Source: Moraxellaceae bacterium
GTDB taxonomy: Bacteria > Pseudomonadota > Gammaproteobacteria > Pseudomonadales > UBA3067
Length of the DNA stretch: 19,232 bases
Direction of reading: 5' to 3'
NCBI GenBank assembly: GCA_002401525.1
Contig: NVTH01000208.1
Location: forward strand, 1 to 19,232
Shown piece after piece: positions 8,459 through 19,232 of the stretch. The notes beneath the pieces are model-generated. The model saw only the letters and a list, made by a program, of their open reading frames with translations. It was not told the origin of the DNA and searched no databases. Within the stretch, counting starts at the first letter, position 1, and each line of letters opens with the position of its first letter. A program made the translations under genes and the position numbers.

Positions 8459-8983
8459 ATGGCCAATTTACTACCCCCAATTAATTTTAAACAATGGATT
8501 GAAGAACACCGCGATCAACTTAAACCGCCGGTGTGTAATAAGGAAGTTTATCCAAACGGTGATTACATCATTATGGTGGTGGGCGGTCCTAATGGTCGCA
8601 GAGACTACCATTACAATGAAGGCGCTGAATTTTTTTATCAACTTGAAGGTGAGATGCTTTTAAAAACCATTCAAAATGGTGAGCCGGTAGATTACCCGCT
8701 TACGGCCGGAGATATTTTCCTCTTACCGCCAAAGACGCCCCACTCGCCAGTACGCTTTGAAAATTCAATTGGTTTAGTGGTAGAAAGTAAACGCCGACCT
8801 GAAGAAAAGGACGGTTTAATGTGGTTCTGTGAACATTGCCATAGCAAATTATACGAAGAGTATTTTCACCTGACAAGCATTGAGAAAGATTTTTTACCGG
8901 TGTTCGAGCGCTTTATCAATTCCGAATCATTACGGACCTGCAGCAATTGTTCAGAAATTATGCCTGCCAATAATAAATTGTAA
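8459..8983 (+). CDS. nbaC: 3-hydroxyanthranilate 3,4-dioxygenase
   Basis: This 174-residue cupin opens the ring of 3-hydroxyanthranilate to 2-amino-3-carboxymuconate semialdehyde (ACMS). The iron ligands His51, Glu57 (HYNEGAEFF) and His95 (TPHSPVR) are at the same positions as in the characterised Cupriavidus metallidurans enzyme. The substrate-contacting Arg47 and Arg99 are also present. The C-terminal rubredoxin-like metal site of bacterial enzymes is intact: CEHC (Cys124, Cys127) and CSNC (Cys161, Cys164). The protein is full length with no gaps. It lies 70 bases after the deaminase gene. An AAGG-like sequence precedes the ATG at short spacing. Product and neighbour agree: the next gene decarboxylates ACMS. 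Confidence 0.97.
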
Positions 8984-9010
8984 TGGCTACTCATGGTGCA
9001 TGACAAACAA

Positions 9011-9058
9011 ATCGAACTGTAAACCGAACTAAATATTGAACTCATAATTGAACTGTAA
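9011..9058 (+). repeat. Degenerate 12-bp tandem repeat (four units) upstream of the decarboxylase gene
   Basis: GAACT occurs at 9014, 9026, 9038 and 9050, an exact 12-base period. The units read atcGAACTgtaa, accGAACTaaat, attGAACTcata, attGAACTgtaa. The first and last differ at one position. The array fills most of the gap between the dioxygenase stop and the decarboxylase ATG, which has no Shine-Dalgarno sequence. Function is unknown. Confidence 0.7.
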
Positions 9059-9069
9059 CCCCGTACAAT

Positions 9070-10107
9070 ATGCCTTTAAAAATAGATATACACACCCACA
9101 TTCTGCCCAAAGACTGGCCTGATTTAAAACAGCGTTACGGTTACGGCGGCTGGGTTCAGTTGGAGCACAGTATCGCTACTGGGGGCGGCTGCGGTTGTGC
9201 GAAAATGCTAAAAGACGGCAAAGTATTTCGAGAAATAGAATCCAATTGTTGGGACCCTCAAATTAGAATCGAAGAATACAAAAGCCACCAAACTCAAGTG
9301 CAGGTGTTGTCGACAGTGCCGGTTATGTTCAACTATTGGGCCAAGCCCAAAGACACGCTCGATTTGGCCAAACGCTTAAATGATCACCTTGCAGAAGTAG
9401 TCAATCTTTATCCGCATCATTTTGTAGGCCTCGCCACCTTACCCATGCAAGCGCCAGATTTAGCCGTCTTAGAGTTAGAACGTTGTATCAAGGAATTAGG
9501 CTTGAGCGGTGCGCAAATCGGCTCTCACATTAATCAATGGAATTTAGATGATGAGCAGCTGTTTCCAGTATTCCAAGCGTGTGAAGAATTAGGCGCGGCA
9601 CTATTTATACATCCCTGGGACATGATGGGCGCAGACCGAATGAAAAAATATTGGTTACCCTGGTTGGTAAGCATGCCCGCTGAAACCAGTTTAGCCATAT
9701 GCTCAATGATATTTGGTGGAGTCCTCGAACGCTTGCCGAAATTACGCGTTGCTTTTGCCCATGGTGGCGGATCATTCCCTTCGACTTTAGGTCGCATAGA
9801 ACATGGCTTTAAAGTGCGTCCTGATTTATGTGCCATTGACAATAATATTAACCCAAGGCATTACGCCAAAAAGATTTACTACGACTCACTAGTGCATGAT
9901 CCTTTAATGATGCGCTACCTACTCGATTTAGTAGGGCCTGAACAAATTGCTCTGGGCAGTGACTATCCGTTTCCATTAGGCGATTTGCAGCCTGGGAAGC
10001 TGATTGATGAACTGGGCATTAGCGACCAAGCACGGCAGCGTATTTTTCACGGCACAGCGCTTGAGTGGCTTAATTTACCTGCCAGCCAATTCGCACAAGG
10101 TGGTTGA
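9070..10107 (+). CDS. nbaD: 2-amino-3-carboxymuconate-6-semialdehyde decarboxylase (ACMSD)
   Basis: This 345-residue amidohydrolase-superfamily enzyme decarboxylates ACMS to 2-aminomuconate semialdehyde, steering flux away from quinolinate. Zinc ligands are visible in order: His8 and His10 (DIHTHILP), His181 (FIHPWD), His231 (FAHGGGSFP) and Asp298 (GSDYPFP). They correspond to His9, His11, His177, His228 and Asp294 of the Pseudomonas fluorescens enzyme. An arginine after the His231 motif (GRIEHGFKVRPDLC) matches the substrate-binding region. Length fits the family. It follows the dioxygenase gene by 86 bases, which contain a 12-bp tandem repeat, and is 6 bases ahead of the cyclase-family gene. 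The ATG at 9070 lacks an obvious Shine-Dalgarno sequence. Confidence 0.96.
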   Translation: MPLKIDIHTHILPKDWPDLKQRYGYGGWVQLEHSIATGGGCGCAKMLKDGKVFREIESNCWDPQIRIEEYKSHQTQVQVLSTVPVMFNYWAKPKDTLDLAKRLNDHLAEVVNLYPHHFVGLATLPMQAPDLAVLELERCIKELGLSGAQIGSHINQWNLDDEQLFPVFQACEELGAALFIHPWDMMGADRMKKYWLPWLVSMPAETSLAICSMIFGGVLERLPKLRVAFAHGGGSFPSTLGRIEHGFKVRPDLCAIDNNINPRHYAKKIYYDSLVHDPLMMRYLLDLVGPEQIALGSDYPFPLGDLQPGKLIDELGISDQARQRIFHGTALEWLNLPASQFAQGG

Positions 10108-10113
10108 CGGCGA

Positions 10114-11016
10114 ATGGCCTTAATCCTAAAGGTTCAACTAGAATCGCAAACTTACTCAGTGGATTTAGAGGCGGCTTATGACCTTTCGATCCCGATTATT
10201 TTCGACGGCCCTCAAGTGAATCATTTCGGAGCGCCGCAGGCTACTAGCGTACCTCTACAAGTAGGCAGTTACGTTGGTAGCACAGGTACTGGTGGCAGCT
10301 GTAATGCCAGCCAAATCACTATGACACCTCACTGCAACGGCACCCATACAGAATGCGCAGGCCATATAATCAATGAGAAATTATCAGTGCTAGACGTGCT
10401 GAAAGAAGAATTATGTTTAGCGCGTTTAATTTCTGTTGTTGCTGAGAAAGGCGCTCAATGCAACGACCAATACCACCCCATTAAAGAAGCCGACGATTTA
10501 ATTATTTCGAAATTGGAATTGGAAAATTCACTCGCAGCCGTCCCGAACACAACCAACACCGTTACTGAAATTGCCCATCAAGCTTTGATCGTGCGGGTTC
10601 TCCCTAACCCAAAAGAAAAGTGCTCCCGAGTTTACACAGCTAAAAATCCCCCAGCATATTTTTCGACTGAAGCGATGGCTTATCTTTCCGCACTGAAGCT
10701 AAAACATTTATTAGTAGATCTGCCTTCGTTGGATCGTATGTACGACAGCGGCTTGTTAAGTAATCATCACCAATGGTGGAATATACCTCAACGACAGACA
10801 GCTGAGAGTATTTCAAAGCCTAACGCAGAATCTAAAATTAATCGTACGGTGACAGAATTAATCTATGTGGATGACGCCATTGACGATGGATATTATGTAT
10901 TAAATCTGCAAATCCCAGCAATCCAAGGCGACGCAGTGCCGAGTCGCCCTTTACTCTACCCTCTTAAATCTTTTTCAGCAGCCACAGCAATGAAATCAAC
11001 GGAAATACCCCTTTAA
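10114..11016 (+). CDS. Cyclase-family metal hydrolase, putative kynurenine formamidase
   Basis: This 300-residue protein carries a cyclase-family (PF04199-type) metal site HCNGTHTECAGH (His73, His78, Glu80, His84). Classic KynB has H-x3-H-x-D; here the first His is one residue further away and Asp is replaced by Glu. The C-terminal part (about 190-260: LKHLLVDLPSLDRMYDSGLLSNHHQWW, then TVTELIYVDDAIDDGYYVLNLQ) also fits the family. Because it lies 6 bases after the decarboxylase and 16 bases before kynureninase, the likely reaction is hydrolysis of N-formylkynurenine to kynurenine and formate. This is inferred from context and family. It is about 90 residues longer than KynB, so it is a distinct subfamily and I give no symbol. 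Confidence 0.8.
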   Translation: MALILKVQLESQTYSVDLEAAYDLSIPIIFDGPQVNHFGAPQATSVPLQVGSYVGSTGTGGSCNASQITMTPHCNGTHTECAGHIINEKLSVLDVLKEELCLARLISVVAEKGAQCNDQYHPIKEADDLIISKLELENSLAAVPNTTNTVTEIAHQALIVRVLPNPKEKCSRVYTAKNPPAYFSTEAMAYLSALKLKHLLVDLPSLDRMYDSGLLSNHHQWWNIPQRQTAESISKPNAESKINRTVTELIYVDDAIDDGYYVLNLQIPAIQGDAVPSRPLLYPLKSFSAATAMKSTEIPL

Positions 11017-11032
11017 TGTTGAAAAAAAGCCA

Positions 11033-12325
11033 ATGAGCAAGGCCATGAATTTTGAGTTTTCGTTAGACCCAAATTTGCCGTCGCTAATGGACGAGCAGGA
11101 TCCGTTGGCTACTTTGCGCGAAGAGTTTTATATTCCCTGTCACGAGAATAAGCAGGAGCTTGTTTATTTTTGTGGTAATTCTCTAGGCTTACAACCACGA
11201 CGCACAGCCGAATACACCCAAGAAGTATTAAGCCAATGGCAATCACTTGCAGTGAAAGGCCATTTCGAGGGCCCTTATCCCTGGATGCCCTATCACGAAT
11301 TTCTTACCGAGGCTTTAGCGCAGTTGGTGGGCGCGCTGCCGGAAGAGGTCGTGGCAATGAACTCGCTCACTGCCAATTTGCATTTAATGATGGCGACCTT
11401 TTTTAGGCCCAATCAAAAACGCAACAAAATAGTCATTGAGCAGCATGCTTTCCCATCCGACTACTACGCAGTGGAGTCACAACTTATTCATCATCAGCTT
11501 GATCCTAAAATTCACCTTATCACTCTAGCCCACAGAGAGGATCTGCTATTTTATACTGAAGACTGGTTGGATCTAATTCACCAACAAGGCGAATCCATCG
11601 CCCTGCTAATTATTCCTGGTGTTCATTACTATTCGGGACAGTTTCTTGATTTAAAAACCATCACTGAAGCGGCTCATGCAAAAGGCTGTTTAGTGGGCGT
11701 GGATCTAGCCCACGCGGTAGGCAACACGGTGCTTTCCCTGCATCAGTGGGAAGTAGATTTTGCAGTGTGGTGCCATTACAAATACGTTAATTCTGGTCCC
11801 GGTGCGGTAGGCGGCTGTTTTGTTCACCAACGTCATGCAAAAAACACTTCACTTCCAAGGCTCTCCGGCTGGTGGGGGCATGACAAAGAAAGTCGATTTC
11901 AAATGAATGCTCAATTCCAAGCCATTGCGAGTGCGGATGGGTGGCAGCTATCGAATCCTCCAATCGTATCCCTCGCAGCCATTCGCGCGTCGTTGGATGT
12001 ATTTTCAAAGGCTGGAGGAATGCTGCCTTTGCGAAAAAAATCAAAACAACTGACTGGGTATTTTGAATATTTAATCAGCCAGCAATTAAGTGAACAAATT
12101 AAATTAATTACGCCCTCCGATCCAGAGCAACGCGGCTGCCAACTGTCTATGGTAATCAACTCCCCAAAAACTTCGGGTAAAGCGTTGTACCAACACTTAA
12201 ATGATCAAGGCGTGAGTGTGGATTGGCGCGAGCCAAACGTCATTCGCGCTACCCCCGTGCCTTTATACAATCGTTATCAAGAGGTGTATCAGCTGGTGGA
12301 AATATTAAAAGAGCAACTGTTATGA
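11033..12325 (+). CDS. kynU: Kynureninase
   Basis: This 430-residue PLP-dependent fold-type I hydrolase cleaves 3-hydroxykynurenine (or kynurenine) to 3-hydroxyanthranilate (or anthranilate) and alanine. Signatures are YFCGNSLGLQPRR near the N-terminus, the substrate loop FEGPYPWMPYHEFL, MNSLTANLHLMM, VGVDLAHAVGN with Asp224 and His227, and the Schiff-base lysine Lys250 in WCHYKYVNSGPGA. The C-terminal domain ends in a typical small-domain sequence (DWREPNVIRATPVPLYNRYQ). It is full length. Two in-frame ATGs (residues 1 and 5) are possible starts. Its stop overlaps the start of the monooxygenase gene in an ATGA, implying translational coupling. Confidence 0.97.
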   Translation: MSKAMNFEFSLDPNLPSLMDEQDPLATLREEFYIPCHENKQELVYFCGNSLGLQPRRTAEYTQEVLSQWQSLAVKGHFEGPYPWMPYHEFLTEALAQLVGALPEEVVAMNSLTANLHLMMATFFRPNQKRNKIVIEQHAFPSDYYAVESQLIHHQLDPKIHLITLAHREDLLFYTEDWLDLIHQQGESIALLIIPGVHYYSGQFLDLKTITEAAHAKGCLVGVDLAHAVGNTVLSLHQWEVDFAVWCHYKYVNSGPGAVGGCFVHQRHAKNTSLPRLSGWWGHDKESRFQMNAQFQAIASADGWQLSNPPIVSLAAIRASLDVFSKAGGMLPLRKKSKQLTGYFEYLISQQLSEQIKLITPSDPEQRGCQLSMVINSPKTSGKALYQHLNDQGVSVDWREPNVIRATPVPLYNRYQEVYQLVEILKEQLL

Positions 12326-13695
12326 AACGGGAGACCATTACACTCATTGGCGCTGGTTTAGTGGGATCATTACTGGCAATTTATTTAGGGCGTAAAGGCT
12401 TTCCGGTGGAGGTTTATGAAAAACGTCCCGACATGCGCAAAGAAAGCATTTCAGCCGGGCGGTCAATTAACTTAGCCCTCGCCAATCGAGGCATCGCTGC
12501 TTTAAAACAAGTGGGTGTGTTCGAAGCGGTAAAGAAAATCATTATTGCCATGGAAGGCCGAGAAATTCATGACCTAAAGGGCGTTACCAACTTCCAACCC
12601 TACGGCCGACGAGAAGAGGAAGTGATCTATTCAATTTCTCGCGCAGCACTAAATTGTTTGTTAATGGATCGTGCAGAAGCCACAGGTAACGTGACACTAT
12701 TTTTTAATCAGTCTTTTGAATCTATCGATCTAAATCAAAACACAATCACCTGTCAAAATACTCTTAATCATTCCTACGACCAGTACTCGTTTAATCGCGT
12801 AATCGGCACAGACGGTAGCAATTCAAAAATTAAAACCATTATCCATCAACGTCATGACCTACAAGCCGGCTTTGATCCCCTTCCCCACGGCTATAAAGAA
12901 CTTTCTATCCCTGCGGATTCAACAGGCCAACATCAAATTTCACCCAATGCCCTACATATATGGCCCCGTGGGCAATACATGAGCATTGCCCTTCCCAACT
13001 TGGATGGTAGTTTTACCGTTACTCTATTTTTACCCCATGAAGGGGAATGTAGCTTTGAGCACCTATTAAAGAAAGGTCAATTAGAAGCGTTTTTTAAACG
13101 GGAGTTTTGTGATCTTAATTTGTTGATACAGGATTTAGATCAGCAATTCGACCAAAACCCCATCGGCAACTTAGCGACGGTTAAAAGCGAGACCTGGCAT
13201 TATGAAGACAAACTACTCATTCTAGGAGACGCCGCACATGCCATCGTGCCCTTTCACGGCCAAGGGATGAATTGTGGTTTTGAAGATTGTTTAACGTTTA
13301 ACGAGTTGCTAGAAACCGAATCCTCATGGAGTGTCTTGTTTAATAAGGTGCAAATCCAGCGAAAACCGAATACCGATGCCATTGCAGAAATGTCTTTAGA
13401 AAACTATCAAGAAATGAGATCCGATGTTTTAGACCCAAAATATAGGCTCAAACAAGCAGTCGCGTTTAAATTGGAAGCACATTTTCCTAATCAATTTATA
13501 CCCAGATACAGCATGGTGATGTTTCATCGAATGCCATATAAAGAGGCCCAGCAGCGCAGCCTAATTCAAGCGCGGATATTGGATCAACTCTGTAATCACA
13601 TTGAACATATCGATGATTTGAATATTGCTTTGGCTCAGGAATTAGTGAATAAAGAGCTGGCTACGCCTGTGGGCGTAGTTCAATCTGCTGAGTAA
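12322..13695 (+). CDS. kmo: Kynurenine 3-monooxygenase
   Basis: This 457-residue FAD-dependent aromatic hydroxylase converts kynurenine to 3-hydroxykynurenine with NADPH and O2. Visible motifs are the dinucleotide-binding GAGLVGS (residues 10-16), the KMO-typical AGRSINLALANRG (45-57), the DG-type motif IGTDGSNSKIK, and GDAAHAIVPFHGQGMNCGFEDC (302-323), nearly identical to the eukaryotic enzyme. The C-terminal membrane anchor of mitochondrial KMO is missing, as usual in bacteria. The start is ATG 12322, overlapping the kynureninase stop by four bases (ATGA). An upstream extension of the frame exists but lies inside kynU and is not credible. A 7-bp hairpin (13661-13678) sits inside the 3' end of the gene. 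It is the last gene of the operon. Confidence 0.97.
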   Translation: MKRETITLIGAGLVGSLLAIYLGRKGFPVEVYEKRPDMRKESISAGRSINLALANRGIAALKQVGVFEAVKKIIIAMEGREIHDLKGVTNFQPYGRREEEVIYSISRAALNCLLMDRAEATGNVTLFFNQSFESIDLNQNTITCQNTLNHSYDQYSFNRVIGTDGSNSKIKTIIHQRHDLQAGFDPLPHGYKELSIPADSTGQHQISPNALHIWPRGQYMSIALPNLDGSFTVTLFLPHEGECSFEHLLKKGQLEAFFKREFCDLNLLIQDLDQQFDQNPIGNLATVKSETWHYEDKLLILGDAAHAIVPFHGQGMNCGFEDCLTFNELLETESSWSVLFNKVQIQRKPNTDAIAEMSLENYQEMRSDVLDPKYRLKQAVAFKLEAHFPNQFIPRYSMVMFHRMPYKEAQQRSLIQARILDQLCNHIEHIDDLNIALAQELVNKELATPVGVVQSAE

Positions 13696-17778: not shown

Positions 17779-18251
17779 ATCATACTCCCCAGCAATAAAC
17801 ACATTATTGGATAATAGTAAGCCACGAAAATATTTTATGAGGCTATTTAATCCGACTATTTATTCAAACCACTCTTTCAAACTATCCATTCAAATCATTT
17901 AATTAGATTATGTCATGAAAACATTTATTTAATTAATGTACCTAATCCAGCCACGTACGCCCGCCTAATTGGCCTAATAAGAACAATGCCGCAGTGATAC
18001 GCTGTATCAATATCTAAAAAAATCGCGCTCGTGACGTATTTACATAAATAAATATTTAAATAATCAAATAAAAATAATATAGTCGGCAACCAACCACATA
18101 AGATTGTGGGCGATTGACATTAACCTATCGCAATCAATTTTGGTTGAGAATTGAACAGGACATTGTTCGCTCAACTGAAGAATAGTATAAACCGAAAGAC
18201 CACGAATAATTCAAATGATTACCCGGAACAATTGCCCAAATGGAGGCCCCT
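17779..18251. promoter_or_regulatory. Long AT-rich leader upstream of the tail sheath gene
   Basis: These 473 bases between divergent genes contain no ORF or RNA gene that I recognise. The stretch 17921-18085 is strongly A/T-rich. At 17963-17980 a GCCTAATTG-GCCTAATAA tandem carries the 14-mer also found at 16825. A TTGACA lies at 18114-18119 but has only a poor -10 partner. The best promoter candidate lies closer to the gene and is listed separately. The Shine-Dalgarno GGAGG is at 18242-18246. Confidence 0.4.
18153..18191 (+). promoter_or_regulatory. Candidate promoter and overlapping dyad upstream of the sheath gene
   Basis: TTGTTC (18163-18168) is followed after 17 bases by TATAAA (18186-18191), a plausible sigma-70 pair placing the transcript start about 50 bases before the sheath ATG. 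The -35 overlaps the dyad GAACA (18153-18157) - 6 nt - TGTTC (18164-18168), a likely place for a repressor. The -35 is weak (three of six consensus bases), so both assignments are inferences. Confidence 0.35.
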
Positions 18252-19232
18252 ATGAGTGTTCCACTGACGTATCCAGGCGTGTATATCGAAGAGGTTCCAA
18301 GTGGTGTTCGTAGTATCACTGGTGTGGCCACATCCGTCGCTGCGTTTATTGGTAGTGCAACACGCGGCGATGAAAATGAGCCCACGTTGGTACAAAGTTT
18401 CGCCGACTACAATCGAACCTTTGGAGTGCTTTCCCGCAGCAGCCCGATGGGATTTTCCGTACGTCAATTTTTTCTAAATGGTGGCCGGGACGCGTTGATT
18501 GTTCGCGTTAGTAATGGCGGAGTCGCAGCAACTGTGACGGCAGGAGGCCTTGATTTAGTCGCGTCTAGTAGCGGCGATTGGGGCGAAAATTTATCGGTCA
18601 CTATTAGCTATCCTGATCCCACCATTAACCCCGATGCGGCAACCAACGAAGTCTTCAATTTGATCATTACCGATTCGGGTACGGGGACCATAGAGTCACT
18701 TAATAATATCTCTGCGCTGGAAGATAACAGTCGCTTTGCCACCACCATTATCGAACAACAATCAAAACTCGTTAGAGTCGATGGGACTTTGGCGGTCACA
18801 CGTCCGACTGAAGTAGTTGATGTTAGCTTTGCCGCTGATGGGGATGATGGTAGCCCCATCACCGACAACGAAGTGTCTAGTGGCGTTAATTTACAGGCGG
18901 ATCGAGAAGGCATCTGGGCTTTAGAAAAAGCCGACCTTTTTAATCTCCTTTGTATTCCTCCTTACGAGCTGGATACCGGCGACATTGGTGCCACTACGCG
19001 TACTGAAGCGGCCAATTATTGTTTGCAAAGGCGCGCAATTTTTATTGCAGATCCTTTACGTGGTTGGAGCGAACCGGATGATATTACCGATCCAGGTACG
19101 GGCTTAGACAGTGGCACGTGGGGGCTCACCCGCAACGCTAATACAGCCGTGTACTTCCCAAGAGTAATCCAACCTAATCCTTTGCAAGAAGGCCGGCTTG
19201 CGGAATTCTCACCCTGCGGCGTGGTCGCCGGG
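18252..19232 (+). CDS. Contractile tail sheath protein (partial, first 327 residues)
   Basis: The frame is open from ATG 18252 to the window end without a stop. GGAGG lies 5 nt upstream. The N-terminus YPGVYIEEVPSGVRSITGVA, then SVAAFIGSATRGD, is the hallmark of contractile sheath subunits of T4-like tails, R-type pyocins and extracellular contractile injection systems (Afp, PVC, MAC). SPMGFSVRQFFLNGGRDALIVRV (about residues 64-86) and the region DLFNLLCIPPYE (about 231-242), then YFPRVIQPNPLQEG, also fit. The sheath contracts to drive an inner tube through a target envelope. No capsid, integrase or other phage gene is visible upstream, and the strong leader suggests this is the first gene of a cluster running rightward. 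Phage or pyocin origin cannot be ruled out from one gene; the C-terminal half is missing. Confidence 0.9.
   Translation, partial: MSVPLTYPGVYIEEVPSGVRSITGVATSVAAFIGSATRGDENEPTLVQSFADYNRTFGVLSRSSPMGFSVRQFFLNGGRDALIVRVSNGGVAATVTAGGLDLVASSSGDWGENLSVTISYPDPTINPDAATNEVFNLIITDSGTGTIESLNNISALEDNSRFATTIIEQQSKLVRVDGTLAVTRPTEVVDVSFAADGDDGSPITDNEVSSGVNLQADREGIWALEKADLFNLLCIPPYELDTGDIGATTRTEAANYCLQRRAIFIADPLRGWSEPDDITDPGTGLDSGTWGLTRNANTAVYFPRVIQPNPLQEGRLAEFSPCGVVAG

Follow-up and report, generated by a model that had tools for sequence, protein, structure and literature searches.

The window analysed here, a stretch of 19,232 nucleotides, is the entire contig C109 of the genome G000, and it ends within an open reading frame (18252-19232, forward strand) that has no stop codon at the contig end. 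The question raised by this locus is whether the frame opens a contractile injection system (CIS), as the first-pass annotation proposed, or belongs to a phage tail, a tailocin or a decayed remnant. We conclude that a CIS of the eCIS superfamily very probably starts here, with this frame as its first structural gene, interrupted solely by the contig boundary.

The sheath gene and the rest of its cluster

The features at the right end of the window are as follows.

17803..18251, forward strand: leader of 449 bases without a recognised gene; it lacks the small upstream frame (upORF131, treated below) that is found here in seven of the nine other rows of its clade
18242..18246, forward strand: ribosome-binding site GGAGG, 5 bases before the ATG at 18252; GGAG in relatives
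18252..19232, forward strand: N-terminal part of a contractile sheath gene (Cis2/Afp2-like), assigned by homology; 327 of about 510 codons, without a stop before the contig end

Judged by sequence comparison, the identity of this frame as a sheath gene is far beyond chance. The fragment matches PHROG 23, "tail sheath", at 1.5e-19 in the PHROGs scan and solved sheaths at a best E of 3.6e-18 in the PDB sequence search, and 5495 proteins match it at E 1e-3 or better in the protein database search. Among the 120 homologues listed, the first 51 are 507-520 residues long, and each carries PF04984 and PF17482; the 327-residue fragment on its own scored no family in Pfam or NCBIfam. GGAG stands directly 5′ of the sheath ATG in all seven aligned relatives, and a start further upstream, at 18240, is improbable, since that ATG would overlap the GGAGG site (18242-18246). 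The well-formed N-terminus and good ribosome-binding site reported by the first-pass annotation are borne out by PHROG 23, the solved sheaths and this GGAGG.

The remainder of the gene lies on contig C76, which was found by searching its own genome (3.37 Mb in 250 contigs, a 74% complete bin) with the tube and ATPase of a relative. Read in reverse, C76 opens with 184 residues of a sheath C-terminus. Residues 1-327 of the full-length homologue P0001 are matched by the window piece at 92.4% and residues 327-510 by the C76 piece at 98.9%, so that the two pieces overlap by one residue. Because the ends of the two contigs share no exact overlap of at least 15 bases, we infer the join from the protein; on these alignments, the gene is in all likelihood whole and split only by the contig boundary. 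An early stop after the window end, which the first-pass annotation named as the mark of a remnant, is not seen, as the sheath frame continues on C76.

Past the sheath C-terminus, C76 holds seven further open frames, the last one cut by the contig end. They include a tube protein (PF06841, 4.2e-44, with one ambiguous residue), a T4_baseplate protein (Pfam, 1e-12), a Pvc16_N cap protein (Pfam, 4.8e-41) and an AAA ATPase with matches to AAA (2.7e-27) and to a winged-helix domain (WHD, 8.8e-16); PADLOC matches to the ATPase lie for the most part in the shared AAA domain. The ATPase is followed by a 104-residue protein and then by a cargo-position ORF that is cut after 182 residues. Contig C89 holds three open frames, of which the first and last are cut: a Baseplate_J protein, a 698-residue protein without a Pfam match, which by its place is probably of the tail-protein-I type, and a 971-residue DUF6519 fibre-type protein (8.1e-30, with a weak beta-helix match below the Pfam cut-off). 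C109, C76 and C89 are unjoined in the assembly, and C89 is placed solely by the gene order in relatives. The anticipated continuation of the cluster holds in G000 for tube, T4_baseplate, Baseplate_J, Pvc16_N and AAA ATPase; of the middle of the cluster, a first Baseplate_J gene, a Phage_base_V spike and eCIS_core were looked for in this 74%-complete bin and not found.

Two further observations concern the same region and genome. Between the T4_baseplate and Pvc16 genes lies a 365-residue protein rich in S, N, L and Q and without a Pfam match (L105:4163-5260, reverse strand); its family occupies this position in 67 of 87 loci, and it could be a length- or loading-related part. A second, distant relative of the CIS ATPase (locus L104, G000:C110:2400-2975, reverse strand) shows 31% identity over residues 456-639.

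Upstream of the sheath, the long leader and the housekeeping-type, non-phage genes noted at first pass are both present. The Pfam scan covered 17 window proteins, with the ORF at 2-778, cut by the left edge, set aside: one is the sheath fragment, 14 of the other 16 match metabolic or housekeeping families, and two have no match. Among these genes is a kynurenine-type degradation set at 8459-13695 on the forward strand (3-HAO, Amidohydro_2, cyclase, the kynureninase C-terminal domain KYNU_C and FAD_binding_3). The promoter scan of the leader gave one match versus 3.2 in shuffles, which is fewer than chance and uninformative, and terminator-like matches numbered 2 versus 0.5. In an alignment of the upstream DNA of relatives judged by eye, no conserved block was evident besides the ribosome site.

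Sheath, tube, gp25 and baseplate J genes are shared by prophage tails and R-type tailocins, and distant phage sheaths do match the query; relatives of the sheath are also encoded at 40 loci from a viral collection, with a best identity of 49% across the whole query. Nevertheless, we consider a prophage tail or an R-type tailocin highly improbable. The matches to phage records are weak (129 of 129 under 60% identity, with the 20 listed at 21.9-35.6%), the pyocin sheath matches P0001 weakly, at 3.1e-5, and G000 carries a Pvc16_N protein and a winged-helix AAA ATPase, while its relatives carry eCIS_core cargo. Capsid, terminase, portal or integrase genes or pyocin-type neighbours, which the first-pass annotation regarded as decisive for this origin, are missing from the proteins scanned: Pfam detected none of the phage families (head, portal, terminase, integrase) in the 17 window proteins or in 10 right-flank proteins from three relatives. 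Those right flanks encode inositol monophosphatase, FHA, T2SSE, rhodanese, GGDEF/EAL, oxidoreductase, hydrolase and HD proteins, and two of the ten have no match. We reject the phage and tailocin origin on the weakness of the phage sheath matches and the lack of phage families in the scanned flanks. A decayed remnant consisting of a lone sheath fragment might be suspected from a window that ends inside the gene and from a bin in which neither a spike nor a first Baseplate_J gene was found as far as searched. This explanation is very unlikely and was also rejected, as C76 supplies the missing C-terminal 184 residues and seven downstream frames, with three more on C89; moreover, the bin is only 74% complete.

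The reading as the left edge of a CIS, with the sheath first, agrees with the genes on C76 and C89 and with the order in the related genome G095, in which the sheath through the DUF6519 gene follow in the same order on a single 64,969-base contig. The criteria for the eCIS superfamily are those of Geller et al. (2021; PMC8213781). Sheath, tube, baseplate, cap (DUF4255/Pvc16_N) and AAA ATPase genes are all found, on three contigs in G000 and on one in G095; membership is judged by these genes rather than by the ten-core-gene cut of that paper. The locus represents a new example of a widespread and known kind of CIS, a well-supported cluster from what is, judging by the relatives of its sheath, probably an uncultured gammaproteobacterium.

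Gene order, cargo and a small upstream family in related loci

In the related loci L012, L107 and L108 (from G095 and G097), Pfam identifies CIS_tube, Phage_base_V, gp25 and two Baseplate_J proteins, together with a DUF4280 (PAAR-like) match below threshold. Of the components to be looked for, gp25 and CIS_tube are thus present in relatives; a spike is represented there by Phage_base_V, for which G000 itself gave no match.

The following counts refer to genes recognised by a set of 19 HMM queries, in loci chosen by sheath similarity, and hold for this lineage only. In 75 of 80 related loci, the tube follows the sheath as the first gene recognised. Where at least 700 bases of upstream sequence are available (76 loci), the gene directly upstream of the sheath is upORF131 in 46, no recognised gene lies ahead in 28, and another CIS gene is found in two (L074 and L082). 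L044 has upORF131 upstream and baseplate-region genes further up, which brings the loci with a same-strand recognised CIS gene other than upORF131 to three of 76 (L044, L074 and L082); in L066, the upstream CIS genes lie on the opposite strand. The first-pass annotation was right that the sheath leads the cluster, but this order is ordinary in this lineage, and we reject the view of it as an oddity.

In a rapidly built tree of 84 sheath rows, the window sheath groups with L009-L017 in a set of ten (support 100), all nine of which are titled as gammaproteobacterial groups. A sheath match occurs in seven of 95 genomes searched, G000 included, hence in six of 94 others; the sole other genome of the genus among them has none. 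Sheath relatives are also encoded on plasmids (125 records, best 54.4%). The 40 loci from the viral contig collection (L114-L153) may include CIS clusters that were classified as viral.

Cargo was scanned with Pfam in the slots of L010, L011, L012, L014 and L016. eCIS_core (DUF4157) is present in four of the five, namely L010 (twice), L011, L014 and L016 (twice), and absent from L012. Such cargo is frequent, though not universal, in the eCIS superfamily. By genome, eight of nine searched have an eCIS_core match, the exception being G000, whose cargo-position ORF is cut after 182 residues. The suggestion of cargo genes holds for the relatives, while no eCIS_core gene was found in G000. The cargo-position protein of L011 (17220-19517, forward strand) combines eCIS_core with four annexin repeats following it. 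L012 and L014 have near-identical sheaths and, from about 17010, different cargo ORFs as read by eye, which fits the known cargo variability of eCIS loci.

The same scan brought to light an unnamed, sheath-linked family of small proteins, whose reference member is the following.

L012:9440-9835, forward strand: upORF131, directly upstream of the sheath; counterparts in 49 of 87 loci

The 49 loci were obtained by searching the ORFs of all 87 with an HMM, and in 48 of 80 related loci the frame lies just before the sheath; judged by their length and content, L002 and L015 represent a single contig of 10,276 bases. The distance to the sheath is 11-195 bases in 40 of 46 cases and 461 in one, and the remaining five overlap according to the ORF start chosen. 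In a less biased sample, the 369 genomes of the class, upORF131 occurs in five and stands beside a sheath gene in all five. The proteins have about 120-145 residues, and most end in a motif resembling I(L/F)(V/I)(G/A)RDATP. At E 1e-3 or better, 721 proteins match; in the 120 entries listed, every name shown reads "hypothetical protein", and no Pfam domain is assigned. No named family fits in scans of Pfam, NCBIfam and PHROGs, which returned scattered weak single-member matches or none. The AlphaFold model is almost all-beta (mean pLDDT 91.4). Nothing convincing emerged from the PDB, whether searched by sequence or by fold (best E 6.8e-4; query TM-score below 0.5 in the 50 listed), and the matches in the viral model library were to uncharacterised phage proteins (best 4.5e-7, TM 0.67); one upORF131 sequence had no match in plasmid or phage records. 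Literature searches by words, in which an unnamed gene is hard to find, gave no description of the family.

On the sheath tree, the presence of upORF131 requires at least 16 changes versus a mean of 27.4 in shuffles, none of 500 being as low, with the qualification that the tree is a quick one and that some rows labelled as lacking the frame have short upstream flanks. It follows that upORF131 tends to follow the sheath lineage and is often lost or exchanged. It is missing before the sheath in the window, L016 and L017 and was not found elsewhere in their genomes. We suggest, with slightly less than even confidence, that upORF131 normally heads the CIS operons of this lineage, is tied to the sheath and has a role in the machine, such as decorating the sheath or terminating it, and that the window system is a variant that lost it. 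If so, comparing systems with and without upORF131 would show its role.

Mechanism and site of action

According to established CIS knowledge, applied here to the observed gene content and order, the tube and sheath would polymerise on a spike-baseplate complex, and the cap would end both. Cargo, which in the relatives consists mainly of DUF4157 proteins whose genes follow that of the ATPase, would be packed into the tube. Contact by the DUF6519 fibre-type protein would change the shape of the baseplate and cause the sheath to contract, and the contracting sheath would drive the tube and its cargo into the target.

Whether such a particle would be released from the cell rather than fire inside it is uncertain, and the indications point in both directions. 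Among solved sheaths (17 distinct sequences matched in all), P0001 is closest to 8bky (2.6e-73) and 9ezm (2.1e-70). It is more distant from Pvc2 (7.6e-44), Afp3 (8.1e-39), All3325 of the Anabaena system (2.3e-37) and 7adz (4.6e-36), and from the pyocin sheath (3.1e-5). In the source papers, 8BKY is traced to Streptomyces coelicolor Cis2, 9EZM to the Halogeometricum borinquense study (PMC11566945) and 7ADZ to AlgoCIS, and 7b5h is named as a tCIS (PMC12923769). Measured against solved structures rather than the dbeCIS reference set, the system appears to combine a fibre-type gene with a sheath whose closest counterparts belong to clade II systems.

The solved systems nearest by sheath point to own-cell or contact-dependent action. 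The S. coelicolor CIS is reported as cytoplasmic (PMC10066040) and that of H. borinquense as membrane-bound (PMC11566945), and a tape-measure gene is reported absent from both systems; no tape-measure family occurs among the cluster proteins scanned here. The rival reading, a cytoplasmic or membrane-tied CIS that acts within the producing cell or on contact instead of being released, is in our view less likely than not. Sheath kinship does not fix the mode of action, and downstream of the baseplate genes lies a fibre-type gene (DUF6519, with a weak beta-helix match), whereas S. coelicolor has no fibre gene. In addition, no 19-residue stretch with a mean Kyte-Doolittle value of at least 1.9 occurs in 19 proteins of the reference cluster or nine of the own genome (the maximum in the L012 cargo is 1.86), which is a mild argument against anchoring in a membrane. 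Both this result and the fibre-type gene lean toward a free particle. The combination of a sheath closest to those of systems acting inside or at their own cell with a fibre-type gene makes the choice between a released weapon and an own-cell device testable in cultivable relatives.

Comparison with known systems

The clusters of Afp (Serratia) and PVC (Photorhabdus) begin with the tube gene. They share with the present system the types of sheath, tube, gp25 (here in relatives), baseplate J, Pvc16 cap and Pvc15 ATPase. They differ in having several sheath proteins (Afp2-4 and Pvc2-4, all of which match P0001), whereas one sheath gene was found here, and it stands first. AlgoCIS (clade Ib) resembles the present lineage in its single sheath protein and DUF4157 cargo, but its sheath 7adz is much more distant (4.6e-36), with the best stretch in the C-terminal part.

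The closest solved sheath is that of the S. coelicolor CIS (8bky, subtype IId), aligned over residues 7-506 of P0001. Both systems have a single-protein sheath, and a tape-measure gene is seen in neither. The S. coelicolor CIS is reported to need the membrane protein CisA; it also differs in having no fibre gene, whereas the present system has a DUF6519 fibre-type protein after the baseplate genes. The next-closest solved system by sheath, the archaeal and membrane-bound CIS of H. borinquense (9ezm, clade IIa), has DUF4157 proteins in an interspacing region (PMC11566945), and proteins of this kind are common to it and the relatives of the present system. The same source describes a separate putative anchor protein, whereas the reference cluster here has no candidate membrane protein at the threshold used. 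In PMC12923769, DUF6519 itself is described as eBAP5, the eCIS domain that anchors the fibre and often carries a beta-helix C-terminus. Like such eBAP5 systems, the present one has DUF6519 beside the baseplate genes, and the C-terminal part of the protein matches a beta-helix weakly. In that source eBAP5 correlates with Actinobacteriota, whereas the present example comes from a gammaproteobacterium-like bin.
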